Positions 29,845 through 46,475 of a stretch of DNA of 64,000 nucleotides are shown here, one piece after another; the stretch's first letter is position 1, and each line of letters begins with the position of its first letter. Origin of the DNA: Prochlorococcus sp. AG-355-I04. Its GTDB lineage: Bacteria > Cyanobacteriota > Cyanobacteriia > PCC-6307 > Cyanobiaceae. Made by a program: the position numbers and the translations under genes. The stretch covers positions 40,499-104,498 of the forward strand of contig QCDL01000005.1 of NCBI GenBank assembly GCA_003280915.1. The letters run 5' to 3'. The notes beneath the pieces were generated by a model. That model did not search any database. It was not told the origin of the DNA and saw nothing but the letters and a program-made list of their open reading frames with translations.

Positions 29845-29952
29845 ATGACTCCAGAAGCAGAACGTTTTAACGGATGGGCAGCAATGTTAGGTTTCGTTGC
29901 CGCAGTGGGTGCCTATGTTACGACAGGTCAAATTATCCCAGGCTGGTTCTAA
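29845..29952 (+). CDS. hli: High light inducible protein, 35 aa
   Basis: Manual: MTPEAERFNGWAAMLGFVAAVGAYVTTGQIIPGWF. Confidence 0.93.
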   Translation: MTPEAERFNGWAAMLGFVAAVGAYVTTGQIIPGWF

Positions 29953-30092
29953 TGAAAAATAAAGAACCCAAAACCGTCGAAAAAGAAAAAATCGTGGCAG
30001 AAAAGCTTAATGGTAGATTTGCAATGTTAGGTTTTATTGCTCTAATTGGAGCCTATTTAACTACAGGTCAGATTATCCCTGGTTTTATCTAA
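29952..30092 (+). CDS. hli: High light inducible protein, 46 aa (ORF track start 29874 is not the real start)
   Basis: MKNKEPKTVEKEKIVAEKLNGRFAMLGFIALIGAYLTTGQIIPGFI; start overlaps preceding stop (TAATG). Confidence 0.93.
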   Translation: MKNKEPKTVEKEKIVAEKLNGRFAMLGFIALIGAYLTTGQIIPGFI

Positions 30093-30790: not shown

Positions 30791-30997
30791 TTAAAAAATT
30801 CCTGGAATTATTTGTCCAGTTGTTATGTAAGCGCCTAATAATGCTACGAAACCGACCATAGCCCATCTACCATTTACTTTTTCTGCGTTTTGAGGATATC
30901 CATCGTAAGATACAGATTCATCAATATATGGTCTTGTTTCTGATGGAAACATATTTTGTCTGCCACCTGATTCTGTTGTAACTCCTGATTTCGTCAT
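30791..30997 (-). CDS. hli: High light inducible protein, 68 aa
   Basis: AEKVNGRWAMVGFVALLGAYITTGQIIPGIF. Confidence 0.95.
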   Translation of the reverse strand: MTKSGVTTESGGRQNMFPSETRPYIDESVSYDGYPQNAEKVNGRWAMVGFVALLGAYITTGQIIPGIF

Positions 30998-31428
30998 TTA
31001 AAAAAATTAATTGTAAATTAAACTAACATATTTATTAACTTATGTAAACCAAAACCCTTAAATAATTTATTTCTGAGTGTTCAGGAGTAAATATGTGACA
31101 TTTTTGTTTAAGAAATAGCAGAAAGCAGAGATTTTCAAATGATTTATTATCTTCAAATTCACAGAAAAGTAGCAAATTAAGCATTTATACCCACACTAAG
31201 TAATTTTACTCAGTAGAATATTCACAGCATTTAGGAAGTGCTTAGCTGGTTAGTATCAGAAGTTCTGGATTAACCAAGTCGTCATGAGCTTGCCGTTGGG
31301 ATACTGCAAGCTCTTTCAATTTTAAAGCATTTAAAAAAACAAACGATTAAAAATAATTTTTTTTATTAACAATAAATATGTCATAAAATGAATTTATTGC
31401 TAAATAAAAAATAGAAATAAAGAAAGAT

Positions 31429-38721: not shown

Positions 38722-39356
38722 ATAGATCAAATAATACCCAGTAACTATTTTTATTGTTTTAGAAAAAAATGCTTCCTTTTTGCTAAGTAATTTGATTTTC
38801 AGGTAAAAATAAAAACTTTAGACAGACTAACGCCTATGTCTAAAGCCAATAAAGCAATTAGTAACTTAGTCATTTTTTAGAACTCTCAACTATTTTTTTG
38901 TAAAGTTCCTCAGAAATAGGTTGCATAACCTTTTAAAAATCTAATTACAAATTAATTATTTTAAAATTAATTACTAGTTACCAAATATACGAATATATGA
39001 ATTTTTAAATAGGCAAAAAATATATTCACTATAAGTTCTTCTTATAAAGTATTAATAAATACTTAATCCAAAAACGTCAATAAATTTCCAAACTTGTTTA
39101 AAAAAGAAATTAGAAACATTATTTTAAGTAAATAGATCCTCTATAAGTAAGCTTTATAATCTTTTCTTCTTGTTTTCTACAATATACGAATGACTTTCCA
39201 TTGAAATACATGTTTACCATGATGCAGCTCCTGAACTTGCTCAAGTCCCCGTCCTATGGCTTGAGTCGTACTGCGGTCTATCAGATGGTAGATCGGACGA
39301 TTTTGTAGTATTCACTACAATCCATTTATAAAGTATTTATACTTAGATGTCAACAA

Positions 39357-39619: not shown

Positions 39620-39801
39620 CAATAATAATATTATTTAAGAATGAATATATCAATGAGCAAAAATACTGAAGCCATTGATATAACAAAAGTTTTGTAGCAA
39701 ATTTATACAATAAAAAACACTTACATATGCTCAGATACTCTTGATCAATTAGCTTATTCAGAGTCAATTATTAAAATTGGTGATCTAATTCCCTTGCAGT
39801 A

Positions 39802-39868
39802 CTATTTTTCTTTTGCTAGAAAAATAGAGCGGGCTAAAGTCCAATACTCCACGAGGATTTAGTCCGCT
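39802..39868. other. Two abutting hairpins; terminator-like on the minus strand
   Basis: CTATTTTTC/GAAAAATAG (39802-39827) then AGCGGGCTAAA/TTTAGTCCGCT (39828-39868). Confidence 0.7.
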
Positions 39869-40012
39869 TCCTAAAACCTGAGAGTGCAAATTTTTCTTAA
39901 TTAATATGCAACTATGCTTTATAGGGTAAATATCTTGATTGCGTAATAAGTTTATTTTGTATATTGCTATTACAAAAATGCTGAGTTTATTTAAATTAGT
40001 TACTGAATCGTC

Positions 40013-40132
40013 GTGGAGAAAGCTTTAGTAAATTTCTTTTACTGGTTACTGATAAGATCAGCCGAATCTCATTATGGAGAATCATTTGTCTCTGTAGAAG
40101 TTCCATCTAATTCAATCAGAAGTTTTTCTTGA
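40013..40132 (+). CDS. Microprotein, 39 aa, GTG start; SAESxYGxS family
   Basis: Manual: (M)EKALVNFFYWLLIRSAESHYGESFVSVEVPSNSIRSFS; paralog at 44465..44572. Confidence 0.65.
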   Translation: MEKALVNFFYWLLIRSAESHYGESFVSVEVPSNSIRSFS

Positions 40133-40277
40133 TTGTAGAAAGTTTTTAATTCTTAAATTCATAGCTTTCTGAAAATTGAATAACTAATTTGAGTTAAGTT
40201 GGTTAATTATCTCTATTGCAAATAAAGACAAGGTTGTTAATCTTGCACTTAAAGAAGAAACTTAATTTCTTAAACTG

Positions 40278-40487
40278 ATGCAATTTGATCATTTAAATTT
40301 CACTGAAGATGAAGGCCTCATGTCTATAGAAGATTTAAGGGCTTTACGTCTTCAAAAAAATAAAATTGAAAGTGATAAGAAAGCTAGGAAATATATCCTA
40401 GATATAAATCAAAGATATAGAAAAATGAGTAACCGCAAAAGTAATAGCTTTTTAAGGAATATGAACCCTTTTAAAAAGGCCGCATAA
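40278..40487 (+). CDS. Hypothetical protein, 69 aa
   Basis: ORF track, MQFDHLNFTEDEGLMSIEDLRALRLQKNK. Confidence 0.65.
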   Translation: MQFDHLNFTEDEGLMSIEDLRALRLQKNKIESDKKARKYILDINQRYRKMSNRKSNSFLRNMNPFKKAA

Positions 40488-40572
40488 ATTGTTAACCTAG
40501 ATTTTGCTAATTTTTTTAAATTTGCAACTTACAGAGTAAGATTTTAATGGTGTTTCTTTGGAAGAGTTTCAC

Positions 40573-40602
40573 CAAGAGGGGTCAATTTTTGGCCCCTTCT
40601 TT
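40573..40602 (+). terminator. Terminator-like hairpin after 40278..40487
   Basis: AAGAGGGG...CCCCTTCTTT region; imperfect stem, boundaries approximate. Confidence 0.6.
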
Positions 40603-40831
40603 GCGGAGATATTTTTAATTTAAACTCTTTCTAAAATAAAAGTAGTACTTTCCTAGAAGGGGAAAGTAATGCAAATCTTTTGTATAAAGTTTTTTTATAA
40701 ACACTTAATGAAAACTCTATATCTTCAATTAAGTCCTCTAATTAAAAAACAAAAGTTTAAGCTTATGAACCACATACCAAAATTTATTGAATTTTTTCAA
40801 CAATTATAAATTTTTTCATTTGCGATTTTTA

Positions 40832-41035
40832 ATGGCTTCACCTACAAGTTGGGAATTCTACAAAGAAGTTGAAACTAAGATTCTATGGGTCAATATTTGT
40901 ACCCAAAATTTAGAAGGCGTAGCTATTTCGATCAATAAATGGTGGAAGACAAGATATCCAGCATACAAAATCAGAATAGTTTCTAAACAAGAATTTGAAC
41001 TAGTAAAAATGCAAGCTGAGAAAAAGGAGCAATAA
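40832..41035 (+). CDS. Hypothetical protein, 67 aa (internal Met start)
   Basis: MASPTSWEFYKEVETKILWVNICTQNLEGVAISINKWWKTRYPAYKIRIVSKQEFE. Confidence 0.6.
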   Translation: MASPTSWEFYKEVETKILWVNICTQNLEGVAISINKWWKTRYPAYKIRIVSKQEFELVKMQAEKKEQ

Positions 41036-41111
41036 AATTGTTCTTTGGTAAATATTTATGCTGAAAATTTAATTTTTGCAGCTATTATTAAATCATTAAA
41101 TTAAGGAACAA

Positions 41112-41267
41112 ATGAATTCTGCATTTGCAAAAGTATCAAATTTGAAAGTTAATAGGGCTTCTAAAATAGCTATTACTCTCACATCATCAACTTTCTTTTT
41201 ATACGCCTTGGGTCAAGCACCAATTTTTAAAAATATTCTTGCAGGTGCCTTCTCTTGTTCTGGCTAA
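41112..41267 (+). CDS. Small protein, 51 aa
   Basis: Manual: MNSAFAKVSNLKVNRASKIAITLTSSTFFLYALGQAPIFKNILAGAFSCSG. Confidence 0.6.
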   Translation: MNSAFAKVSNLKVNRASKIAITLTSSTFFLYALGQAPIFKNILAGAFSCSG

Positions 41268-41337
41268 ATAAAATAATATTTTTTTAAGAGAAACTAAAAA
41301 TCTAAAATAGACTATGATTGACAATACATCTAAACTT

Positions 41338-41360
41338 AGAGGGATAAACCCCTCTTTTTT
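41338..41360 (+). terminator. Rho-independent terminator
   Basis: AGAGGG-ATAAAC-CCCTCT then T-run. Confidence 0.85.
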
Positions 41361-41420
41361 AATGTTTAATAGATTTATTTATGAAAAGATAATGACTCTT
41401 CTTATTTGTCTTTTCAGCTG

Positions 41421-41537
41421 ATGAATATTTCCCCTCACCTATTAATTGATGTTGTAATATTAAGCGCTGCCCTTACGATAACTTTGGTATTAAGAGCTAA
41501 AGGTAATGCTGCCAGAAAAGAAAAAGAAAATAAATGA
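41421..41537 (+). CDS. TM microprotein, 38 aa
   Basis: Manual: MNISPHLLIDVVILSAALTITLVLRAKGNAARKEKENK. Confidence 0.6.
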   Translation: MNISPHLLIDVVILSAALTITLVLRAKGNAARKEKENK

Positions 41538-41674
41538 TTACTAAAAAAGAAGAAAAAGAATTTAAAAAACCTAAATTATATAGATTTTGGAACTTTCTTA
41601 TTTATGGTAGTTCCATTGCTATTGGAGTTTTCTTAGTTTATTTATATTCTGCTTATGTCTTTATAAATAAATGA
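41534..41674 (+). CDS. TM microprotein, 46 aa (ATGA overlap with upstream)
   Basis: Manual: MITKKEEKEFKKPKLYRFWNFLIYGSSIAIGVFLVYLYSAYVFINK. Confidence 0.6.
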   Translation: MITKKEEKEFKKPKLYRFWNFLIYGSSIAIGVFLVYLYSAYVFINK

Positions 41675-41766
41675 CTTACATGTATGGCATGGCTATTACA
41701 TATGGGGTTGTGAGTCTTTTATTGCTTGGTGGGTTTGCATACTTTACTTTTAAAATGAAACGCTAA
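41671..41766 (+). CDS. TM microprotein, 31 aa (ATGA overlap with upstream)
   Basis: Manual: MTYMYGMAITYGVVSLLLLGGFAYFTFKMKR. Confidence 0.6.
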   Translation: MTYMYGMAITYGVVSLLLLGGFAYFTFKMKR

Positions 41767-41771
41767 TTTTA

Positions 41772-41897
41772 ATGTCCTCTTCAATGAAAGATTTCTTAGA
41801 TAAATTTTTTGATTTATGTAGAGAATATCAACAAGAAATTCCACCTCAGAAGATGGCTGAGATTTTAAGAGAATATGCAGATAGATTAGATGAATGA
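41772..41897 (+). CDS. Soluble microprotein, 41 aa
   Basis: Manual: MSSSMKDFLDKFFDLCREYQQEIPPQKMAEILREYADRLDE. Confidence 0.6.
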   Translation: MSSSMKDFLDKFFDLCREYQQEIPPQKMAEILREYADRLDE

Positions 41898-42027
41898 TAA
41901 ATACTGGCAGACCTAAGAAGGTATTAAGAGAATATAATTTCTAGCAAAATTTACACAAAATTTTTAAAATTTGGATTAAATTTTTTGAGGATATTTTCCT
42001 TGCAATTATTCATAATTTGAGATTTTT

Positions 42028-42285
42028 TTGATCCTTAATCCGTACAATTTTGTTCCTCTTACCGCACACATAAAACTTGAAATTTACTATTCAAATGAAC
42101 TAGAACATAGGTGTAGTCAAGAGATAAGTCTTATGGCACTAAATGACAAATTTACTATCCAAGAAATTAATTTGGATAAAAAAAACCTTTCATTTGATAA
42201 TAAGCTCAAAGAAATTGAAGCTTATTGGAATAACGAATGTGCAGAACATCCGAGTAACAACCATTGCAAGATTTTTTGTGATTAA
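42028..42285 (+). CDS. Hypothetical protein with C-terminal ECx3Px4Cx3C tail, TTG start
   Basis: Ends ECAEHPSNNHCKIFCD; paralogous tail at 42488..42634. Confidence 0.65.
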   Translation: MILNPYNFVPLTAHIKLEIYYSNELEHRCSQEISLMALNDKFTIQEINLDKKNLSFDNKLKEIEAYWNNECAEHPSNNHCKIFCD

Positions 42286-42370
42286 ATCTTTAACTTTTAG
42301 GTATTCTTACGCTTGATTTTTACATAATACCCGTACTAAAGAATAATTAGACAGAAAGGAGGCCAAGCAA

Positions 42371-42472
42371 ATGACTAATTTAGGTATAGAAATTTTATTT
42401 TGGACAATTTTAATTTCTTATTTGGGATTAAGGTTTTCTCAAACTTGGAATGGATTCAAAAAACAGTATTAA
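42371..42472 (+). CDS. TM microprotein, 33 aa
   Basis: Manual: MTNLGIEILFWTILISYLGLRFSQTWNGFKKQY; GGAGG-like site upstream (aaaggaggccaagcaa). Confidence 0.55.
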   Translation: MTNLGIEILFWTILISYLGLRFSQTWNGFKKQY

Positions 42473-42487
42473 TTAGGAGAATAGAAA

Positions 42488-42634
42488 ATGAAACTACAAA
42501 CTCAGTTCACGGTTCCAAAAAAAGAATTAAAAGATCTTGATTATGTCAAGAAAGTGGATTTCTTAGAAGAAACTTTAAACAAAGAATGTATAGATTATCC
42601 AAATCAAGAAGATTGCTTGGTTTGTTGCAATTAG
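42488..42634 (+). CDS. Small protein, 48 aa, C-terminal ECx3Px4Cx3C tail
   Basis: Manual: MKLQTQFTVPKKELKDLDYVKKVDFLEETLNKECIDYPNQEDCLVCCN. Confidence 0.65.
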   Translation: MKLQTQFTVPKKELKDLDYVKKVDFLEETLNKECIDYPNQEDCLVCCN

Positions 42635-42712
42635 AAATCAAAAAATAGCTGTTTTTTATAAGTAAATAATTTTTATTAGTATTTATAAATTTTCTAAAAG
42701 GGAGTTAGCACT

Positions 42713-43231
42713 ATGGAATTAAGATTCTTCCCAATAAATATTTTTAGAGAGACTCCAAAAGTCACATTCTTTGATGCAGGCATAGATAGTTCTAATGGTT
42801 CTGATGTTGTGATCCATTCTGGGGAAGCTATATCTCCTCCAGATGATTTAAAAGATGAGCAATATTATGTTCACAACCATCAAATTGACCACAATTTAGT
42901 TATCACTGGAGAAAGGAAATTTGTTTTAATAAATCCTTCCTGGGATGAACCTCATCATGTAATTTATTTAAATAGATCCATGGGAGCATTAGAAATTCCA
43001 ATAGGAACTTATCACAGATCTATCTCAGGTAAAGAAGGTAGTATTGTTTTAAACCAACCCAAAAGAGATAAATTTTTTGATCCTGCTAAAGAATTTATCC
43101 CTCAAAAATTAGACAAAATTAATTTAATTAATGCAAGAAAAAGTACACCTGTTTATTGGATTTACGAAAATAACAAAATCAAAAGAGTTCATTTTAATCC
43201 TCTAGAAAGAAAAGTTAAAACTCTTGTTTGA
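42713..43231 (+). CDS. Conserved hypothetical, cupin-like
   Basis: 172 aa: YYVHNHQIDHNLVITGERKFVLINPSWDEPHHVIYLNRSMGALEIPIGTYHRSISG. Confidence 0.75.
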   Translation: MELRFFPINIFRETPKVTFFDAGIDSSNGSDVVIHSGEAISPPDDLKDEQYYVHNHQIDHNLVITGERKFVLINPSWDEPHHVIYLNRSMGALEIPIGTYHRSISGKEGSIVLNQPKRDKFFDPAKEFIPQKLDKINLINARKSTPVYWIYENNKIKRVHFNPLERKVKTLV

Positions 43232-44087
43232 AATGAAAAAACATATATCCCATAATAATAATTTTAAAAACCTGAATTTAATTATTAATTCTGATACTTA
43301 TAAATTGGCTCACGAAGATATTGGCCTATTAAGCCGAAATGAAATGCGTGGAGTTAGAATGCTCCTTGAAATTACTAAACCAGATTTAATCCTTGAAGAA
43401 AATAAAATTCTTTCAACCATAATTATTTTTGGAGGTGCAAGCATTGCAGAAGAATCAAATACAAAAAAGAAAATTGAAAATATAAAAGAATTAATTAAAA
43501 AAAATAATAAATCGATACTTCTAAAACGAAATTTAAATAGATTAGAAAATTTGCTTCTAATAAGTAAGTATTATCAATCTGCGAGGGAGTTTTCTAAACT
43601 TGCTTCAATTAATAATCAAAATAAAAAATGTAATTCTCATGTGATTGTTACAGGTGGGGGGCCAGGAATTATGGAAGCTGCCAATAGAGGTGCATTTGAA
43701 GCAAATTGTAAGTCTATAGGGTTAAATATCAGTCTCCCTAATGAACAAATACCAAATGCTTTTATAACTCCGGGTCTTTGCTTTAAATTTAATTATTTTG
43801 CATTAAGAAAGATCCATTTTGTTATGCGATCAGTAGCTGCTGTATTTTTTCCTGGAGGTTATGGAACACTAGATGAATTATTTGAACTATTGACACTTTG
43901 TCAAACAGGAATGAAAAATAAAATCCCAATAATACTTTTTGGTAGAGAGTATTGGAATAAGATAATTAATTTTGACTATTTAGCTGATCTTGGATTAATT
44001 GAAGATGAACATTTAAATCTTTTCCAATATGCAGACACTGCATCAGAAGCATGGGAAATTATTAAATTTTCAAAAAAGTCAGTCTAG
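43224..44087 (+). CDS. LOG-family (putative lysine decarboxylase-like / cytokinin riboside hydrolase-like) protein
   Basis: VTGGGPGIMEAANRGAFEA and FFPGGYGTLDELFE. Confidence 0.92.
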   Translation: MFEMKKHISHNNNFKNLNLIINSDTYKLAHEDIGLLSRNEMRGVRMLLEITKPDLILEENKILSTIIIFGGASIAEESNTKKKIENIKELIKKNNKSILLKRNLNRLENLLLISKYYQSAREFSKLASINNQNKKCNSHVIVTGGGPGIMEAANRGAFEANCKSIGLNISLPNEQIPNAFITPGLCFKFNYFALRKIHFVMRSVAAVFFPGGYGTLDELFELLTLCQTGMKNKIPIILFGREYWNKIINFDYLADLGLIEDEHLNLFQYADTASEAWEIIKFSKKSV

Positions 44088-44126
44088 AAAACTACAAGCT
44101 GAATTGATAAAAATATAGAAGAATGA

Positions 44127-44243
44127 TTAATAAGTATTTGATATTTTGTTTTTCATGCTTTCAATCTTATTGATTAATTCATCTAACCATTCTGTATTAT
44201 TTTGCTCTTGTCTTTTATGGCTTTGGCTTTTTTGATTACTCAT
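44127..44243 (-). CDS. Microprotein, 38 aa, NNTxWLDxLIN family
   Basis: Manual: MSNQKSQSHKRQEQNNTEWLDELINKIESMKNKISNTY. Confidence 0.6.
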   Translation of the reverse strand: MSNQKSQSHKRQEQNNTEWLDELINKIESMKNKISNTY

Positions 44244-44464
44244 AAATTTCTTACTTTTATAGTTTATTTAATATATCTTCAGAAATTAAAGGAATCAATA
44301 AGCAATACTACCAAATCGATTGATAAAACAAGCTTTAGTAGCATTTCATACAAACCTAACCATCACAAATTAACTAAGAAAATCTAAATCTCTTCAGTTA
44401 AGTATTTTCTACGATGTTTTTATTTGAAATTCTGATTTGAATAAGTAAAGGTATAGATGTTCCT

Positions 44465-44572
44465 ATGGAAAAATCATTTCTGAATTTTATTTATTGGATC
44501 CTAGTAAAGTCAGCTGAAAGTTACTACGGAGATTCATTAAAAACAGAAGTACCTTATACACCTTATTTTTAG
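44465..44572 (+). CDS. Microprotein, 35 aa, SAESxYGxS family
   Basis: Manual: MEKSFLNFIYWILVKSAESYYGDSLKTEVPYTPYF. Confidence 0.65.
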   Translation: MEKSFLNFIYWILVKSAESYYGDSLKTEVPYTPYF

Positions 44573-46148: not shown

Positions 46149-46475
46149 ATGAAATGGAACAACCAAATCAAAAAAAAATTTGGTCAACACCGGAGATTGA
46201 TTTGTGACTACCTAATGTCCTCTAGGAAGTTAAAAGGACATAAGTTTTCCGAAAGACCATACACTCTTTACTCAATGAGATCCACATTCATTGAAAATCA
46301 TATCTTGAGAATTACTGATGCTTATTTATTAGCTCGTATACTTGGCAACTCAGTAGCAACAGTCATGCAGACTTACGAAAGGATAGACATCCGAAAGAGG
46401 ACAAAGGAACTAACCGATATTGAGTTCGGTTCGAAGAAAGGCAATCCTGAGACTATCAGCCTCTTTGACGAATAA
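46149..46475 (+). pseudogene. C-terminal fragment of a tyrosine recombinase (phage-type integrase)
   Basis: YTLYSMRSTFIENHI ... LLARILGNSVATVMQTYERI; N-terminal domains absent. Confidence 0.75.

Follow-up and report, generated by a model that had tools for sequence, protein, structure and literature searches.

What two very short, related genes do in an accessory region of a Prochlorococcus genome, and what may hold one of them in check, is the question raised by the window analysed here, a stretch of 64,000 nucleotides (nt) from Prochlorococcus sp. AG-355-I04 (contig QCDL01000005.1, positions 40,499 to 104,498 of the forward strand; coordinates below count from its first letter). A first-pass annotation had pointed out two paralogous micro open reading frames (ORFs), here called A and B, and re-reading of the sequence returned the same coordinates and translations: peptide gene A lies at 40013..40132 on the plus strand (GTG start, 39 amino acids (aa), MEKALVNFFYWLLIRSAESHYGESFVSVEVPSNSIRSFS, stop included) and peptide gene B at 44465..44572 on the same strand (ATG start, 35 aa, MEKSFLNFIYWILVKSAESYYGDSLKTEVPYTPYF, stop included). 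The explanation that we favour, and regard as fairly likely as a whole, is that A and B represent two long-established subfamilies of a small peptide that is largely helical and that a trans-acting antisense RNA controls A after transcription, in an arrangement working like a type I toxin–antitoxin pair. While the earlier reading of a small-gene pair was supported, the antisense hairpin, which is the part with mechanistic meaning, lay outside the interval then considered and had been missed.

The candidate antisense RNA gene is a hairpin located at 39828..39868 on the plus strand, approximately 190 nt upstream of A and in the same orientation. It comprises 41 nt, with a 14-pair stem interrupted by one bulge and a 12-nt loop, AATACTCCACGA, and reads AGCGGGCTAAAGTCC-AATACTCCACGA-GGATTTAGTCCGCT. 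The same hairpin was observed 176-198 nt upstream, on the same strand, at 62 of the 69 unique A loci. Its loop plus 3′ arm contains the anti-A segment CTCCACGAGGATTTAGT (39847..39863, plus strand), whose reverse complement is the start consensus of A, ACTAAATCCTCGTGGAG, so that 17 nt across the start codon are complementary; the corresponding target site on the A mRNA (40002..40018, plus strand) reads ACTGAATCGTCGTGGAG in the window and includes the GTG start codon. This complementarity sits at the same place in most A loci and is exact in most strains. It was also specific, given that A ranked first as a target among the 372 ORF starts in the window once the strand complementary to the hairpin itself was set aside (-34.6 kcal/mol, and -38.5 kcal/mol for the consensus A). 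Additionally, when up to one mismatch was allowed, every occurrence of the 16-mer CTAAATCCTCGTGGAG in seven related genomes fell on an A start or a hairpin gene, and in the window's own genome a tolerance of two mismatches recovered A, two hairpins and one other site only. The same scan within 6 kb of B returned no consistent antisense hairpin partner.

Folding bears on the strand on which the hairpin would function. The sense strand folds at -18.1 kcal/mol against -13.9 for the antisense strand (z -4.1 versus -1.8), and the stem variants found among strains give 34 G.U and 29 unpaired positions on the sense strand, compared with 10 G.U and 53 unpaired on the antisense one. A minus-strand ORF lying over the hairpin (39785-39889) was considered as the conserved object and rejected, because indels in several strains break its frame and the pairing asymmetry favours the plus strand. 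An Rfam covariance-model search with the hairpin returned no match. Just upstream, at 39794..39822 on the plus strand, stands a putative promoter of the hairpin RNA, formed by TTGCAG, a 17-bp spacer ending in TGC, and TAGAAA. In 60 of the 67 hairpin contexts TTG is found exactly 17 bp upstream of the TGC-TA element, other spacings occurring 0-2 times, and in 57 of the 67 the TA precedes the hairpin GCGG by 12 nt; from this geometry and this distance, the RNA start would fall at the hairpin base. A scan with a strict sigma-70 consensus did not call this site, nor did a terminator scan call one at the hairpin. Taken on its sequence features, the hairpin looks like an RNA gene of its own, apparently transcribed apart from A.

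A covariance model of the hairpin detected a second, unlinked copy in most genomes, which in the genome of the window lies at G000:C2:6168-6213 on the minus strand. The unlinked copy consists of 42 nearly invariant nt followed by a T-run, with flanks that differ from those of the linked copy, and its promoter letters, TTGTAT-N17-TATTTT, are other letters in the same 17-bp geometry. MED4 has hairpin genes at 770250 (complement, 770250-770295) and 1350537, and 5.5 kb separate its hairpin from A; in genomes like that of MED4, the RNA gene that survives does not adjoin the intact A. These features bear on whether the hairpin could instead be part of the A transcript, as a 5′ leader structure or an attenuator acting in cis, or a terminator, the complementarity then lying within one transcript. 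Such a leader would suit the co-directional orientation of the linked hairpin, the lack of a clear terminator between it and A, and the partly conserved intervening stretch. However, the unlinked copy has different flanks with the same promoter geometry, hairpins persist where A was deleted or has decayed, and A possesses a conserved upstream promoter-like block of its own, which together make cis control unlikely. That block (39955..39977, plus strand), recognized by upstream alignment and direct reading, is a dyad TTTTGTA-N9-TACAAAA overlapping a TTGC-TATTAC extended -10-like element, and is a putative promoter/operator. The dyad, perfect and placed over the presumed A promoter, could be a regulator site, being NtcA-like with one more base in the spacer.

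The two hairpin copies also bear on the idea of a shared repeat, according to which the hairpin and the A start would be copies of one palindromic motif, a DNA binding site or small mobile repeat, that match by chance or common origin and never pair as RNA. A similar dyad (TTACTAAA...TTTAGTAA) is indeed present in the A start region and compensatory changes are few, as such a repeat would have it. We nevertheless consider this explanation quite improbable, in view of the confinement of the stem G.U pairs mainly to one strand, the restriction of matches with 0-1 mismatch to A starts and hairpin genes, where a dispersed motif was not seen, and the contrast between the halves of the unlinked copy, which has kept the anti-A half without change but departs from the linked one at 6 of the 21 positions of the 5′ half.

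Returning to antisense control, the proposed mechanism can be described as follows. The hairpin RNA would start at the hairpin base from its own promoter, and its loop (CUCCACGA) would pair with the start region of the A mRNA; pairing would then spread through the 3′ arm into ACUAAAUCCUCGUGGAG, cover the GTG start codon and block ribosome entry. The RNA would work in trans, from one gene approximately 190 nt upstream of A and another unlinked to it, and probably keeps A switched off. The coding nature of the peptides, their family, the complementarity and its specificity, the promoter-like architecture and the constant company of a hairpin gene wherever A occurs were all computed here; we infer the transcription of the hairpin RNA and the translational block of A.

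Such a mechanism presupposes that A is translated. A and B proved to be related, with 18 of 31 identities and 26 of 31 positives (E=1e-13, as a single comparison), although the alignment previously called gapless contains one gap near residue 25. They belong to distinct subfamilies, marked by SHYG and YYGD respectively and by different tails, and a search of the whole 1.56-Mb genome recovered no strong family member besides these two. A profile built from the two sequences detected members in most genomes of the genus of the window, usually in 1-5 copies, while a twelve-sequence profile, with weak hits admitted as far as E<=1, picked up 84 of the 87 near-complete genomes in that genus, and 228 encoding stretches were confirmed in genome contigs, the best 80 of these 228 coming from Prochlorococcus or uncultured Synechococcaceae. 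These counts bear out the proposal of a real, expanded micro-gene family, for which an absence of further copies in related genomes would have been damaging. A shorter remote relative (MSRAVNWVLLQFAMSYYGDSLKEFQVEND in NATL2A) was recovered in genus g56, that of NATL2A, with a profile-profile E=2.8e-8, and the loci examined for it contained no partner hairpin. By sequence comparison, A and B are members of an uncharacterised peptide family distributed across high-light Prochlorococcus, which has no match in Pfam, NCBIfam, PHROGs, PADLOC or PDB. Cyanophages yielded no copy, and a cyanophage origin of A and B was rejected, as no relative was found in the viral contigs or phage records searched.

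Selection on the reading frames points in the same direction. The ratio of non-synonymous to synonymous change (pN/pS) was 0.26 within A and 0.18 within B, and changes fell mainly on third codon positions (95/62/225 for positions 1/2/3 in A, 253/82/502 in B). Over codons 2-24, A against B gave a pS of 0.74 and a pN of 0.21, so the equal synonymous and non-synonymous change that would have spoken against the pair was not what the two copies display. A and B are coding and under purifying selection. The contrary idea, that both ORFs are untranslated and the conserved object is an RNA, could appeal to their very short length, to the one GTG start and to the strongly conserved 5′ regions; it is very hard to maintain against the third-position bias, these pN/pS values, the conserved GTG/ATG start of A, with GTG swapped for ATG at the same position in some strains, and a family profile that reaches another genus at the protein level. 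The upstream regions of A and B each carry a strong conserved block and the two blocks differ; that of B, identified by upstream alignment (44398..44464, plus strand, TTAAGTATTTTCTACGATGTTTTTATTTG...), is a putative promoter with 5′ untranslated region. AlphaFold2 predicted for A a helix over residues 2-22 with a pLDDT of about 94 and a tail of low confidence.

Further relatives and remnants were also noted. Divergent paralogues (MYKALINFFYWLLIKSTQTENGSSLLEV..., MYKVLINFFYWLLIKSKES...) occur directly 3′ of an A copy in L084 (2460-2603, broken) and L072 (2217-2375). In L200 (~1440-1554; MED4 1346 kb), a 5′-truncated A remnant is fused to another start (MINIQKNETLTTYTANSYELTAESHYGESLIPVKFTT) and adjoins the counterpart of the window gene 42713-43231.

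How far A depends on the hairpin was followed through gene content, for which A was scored in the 87 near-complete genomes by a specific DNA pattern that never matched the controls and the hairpin with weak matches included. A was present in 67 of these genomes and at least one hairpin gene in 79. All 67 A-bearing genomes had a hairpin gene, 12 genomes had a hairpin but no A, and all eight hairpin-less genomes lacked A (Fisher p=2e-6, phylogeny not corrected for). Individual cases illustrate this asymmetry: G388 has lost A by deletion but still has an intact linked hairpin, G336 and G371 carry an intact hairpin beside a decayed A remnant with an intact A elsewhere in the genome, and G377 has kept the hairpin with A undetectable. 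In the A-less G365 (L217) the hairpin is decaying (36.6 bits), which, with G375 below, may reflect other targets or a recent loss. One-way dependence together with retention of the hairpin after loss of A is what a toxin–antitoxin pair predicts, and several A copies contain stop codons, as would be shown by a gene that is costly. Both observations fit poorly with a different view, in which A and B would be peptides associated with stress or photosynthesis and doing no harm, for instance as partners of the nearby high-light-inducible proteins, and the hairpin RNA an ordinary regulatory brake. This view is a serious possibility, somewhat short of an even chance: hli genes lie near the loci in the window, MED4, MIT9312, AS9601 and MIT9301, B is conserved as well as A yet has no antisense partner, and the hydrophobic core of A is short. 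A growth-inhibiting effect of peptide A may be proposed tentatively. More speculatively still, the locus might represent an undescribed type I toxin–antitoxin family of the most abundant phototroph in the ocean, with A as a growth inhibitor silenced by a two-copy hairpin RNA, one copy linked and the other unlinked and nearly invariant, near a high-light/phage-response island.

Several points weigh against the antisense and toxin–antitoxin interpretation. Stem covariation was no greater than in shuffles, and the linked hairpin has no obvious terminator. The A of the window itself shows one mismatch and one wobble to the hairpin, and compensatory change is weak, with -25.4 kcal/mol for cognate and -25.0 for non-cognate pairs (permutation p 0.017, a value that ignores phylogeny) and 60 of 816 positions unpaired; given this weak RNA/target covariation, the argument is built on conservation, on specificity, on the geometry of the promoter and on the asymmetry in gene content. 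Additionally, G375, which lacks both A and B, holds a perfect unlinked hairpin (L246), so other targets are possible. Finally, the hydrophobic core of A spans just 11 residues (best 11-residue hydropathy 1.98, best 19-residue value only 0.48) and its net charge is -1, in contrast to the majority of membrane type I toxins, which are hydrophobic and carry cationic residues (PMC8309996).

Regarding its surroundings, the region is an hli/Yfr20 neighbourhood. The Yfr20 RNA (31225-31312, plus strand) and two high-light-inducible protein genes (29874-30092, plus; 30791-30997, minus) are close by, as in MED4 genomic island 5, and in MED4 (G152) A and B stand in tandem approximately 70 nt apart, next to an hli cluster. 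A Glutamine-II riboswitch (39240-39302, minus strand) precedes a small minus-strand ORF (39119-39244), approximately 0.5 kb from the hairpin gene. A gene of the Lysine_decarbox (PF03641) family (43224-44087, plus strand) stands between the two peptide genes, and an ORF at 46149-46475 (plus strand) resembles by eye the C-terminal part of a tyrosine recombinase, without a Pfam match. Prochlorococcus has few regulatory proteins. If the proposed pairing is true, a widely conserved micro-gene controlled by its own antisense RNA would amount to a concrete and testable switch, governed by RNA, for growth or stress in an organism of great abundance. The findings also suggest that the peptide gene and its RNA partner can both escape standard annotation.

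Trans-encoded type I pairs, such as tisB/IstR-1, zorO/orzO and dinQ/agrB of Escherichia coli, offer one comparison. These pairs share with the present locus a peptide below 60 aa, A having 39, and a short antisense RNA, here predicted; the RNA gene is likewise nearby and non-overlapping, and the site of pairing is the leader or the vicinity of the translation start (PMC8309996, PMC12390103). On the other hand, the RNA gene here is on the strand of the peptide gene and has a second, unlinked copy, and A seems to lack a classical membrane-spanning segment and has no demonstrated sequence relation to those peptides. Size, antisense control and dependence resemble such pairs, and membership in type I toxin–antitoxin systems is not claimed. 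In high-light Prochlorococcus, Yfr6/Yfr14 and Yfr8/Yfr9 of MED4 also combine a small peptide frame with an antisense RNA and, in the report by Steglich et al. (2008), were proposed as toxin–antitoxin candidates (PMC2518516). The MED4 Yfr6 peptide reads MTLIYRGQKYV... and is unrelated to A and B, so identity with it was rejected. The coordinates given there for Yfr8-Yfr21 all differ from those of the two MED4 hairpin genes, 770250 and 1350537 (PMC2518516), the comparison by coordinates covering that set and not RNAs described from MED4 afterwards, Yfr28 and Yfr29 among them (PMC7368042). The same paper gives 113 new short ORFs for MED4, among which A or B may be listed, and states that none of the seven toxin–antitoxin families then known was identifiable in Prochlorococcus (PMC2518516). 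The first candidate type I pair of a cyanobacterium, MsoT1/MsoA1, was reported in 2025 from Microcystis (PMC12390103); the pair proposed here resembles it in being a cyanobacterial type I candidate and differs in joining a hairpin RNA that would act in trans to a 39-aa peptide.
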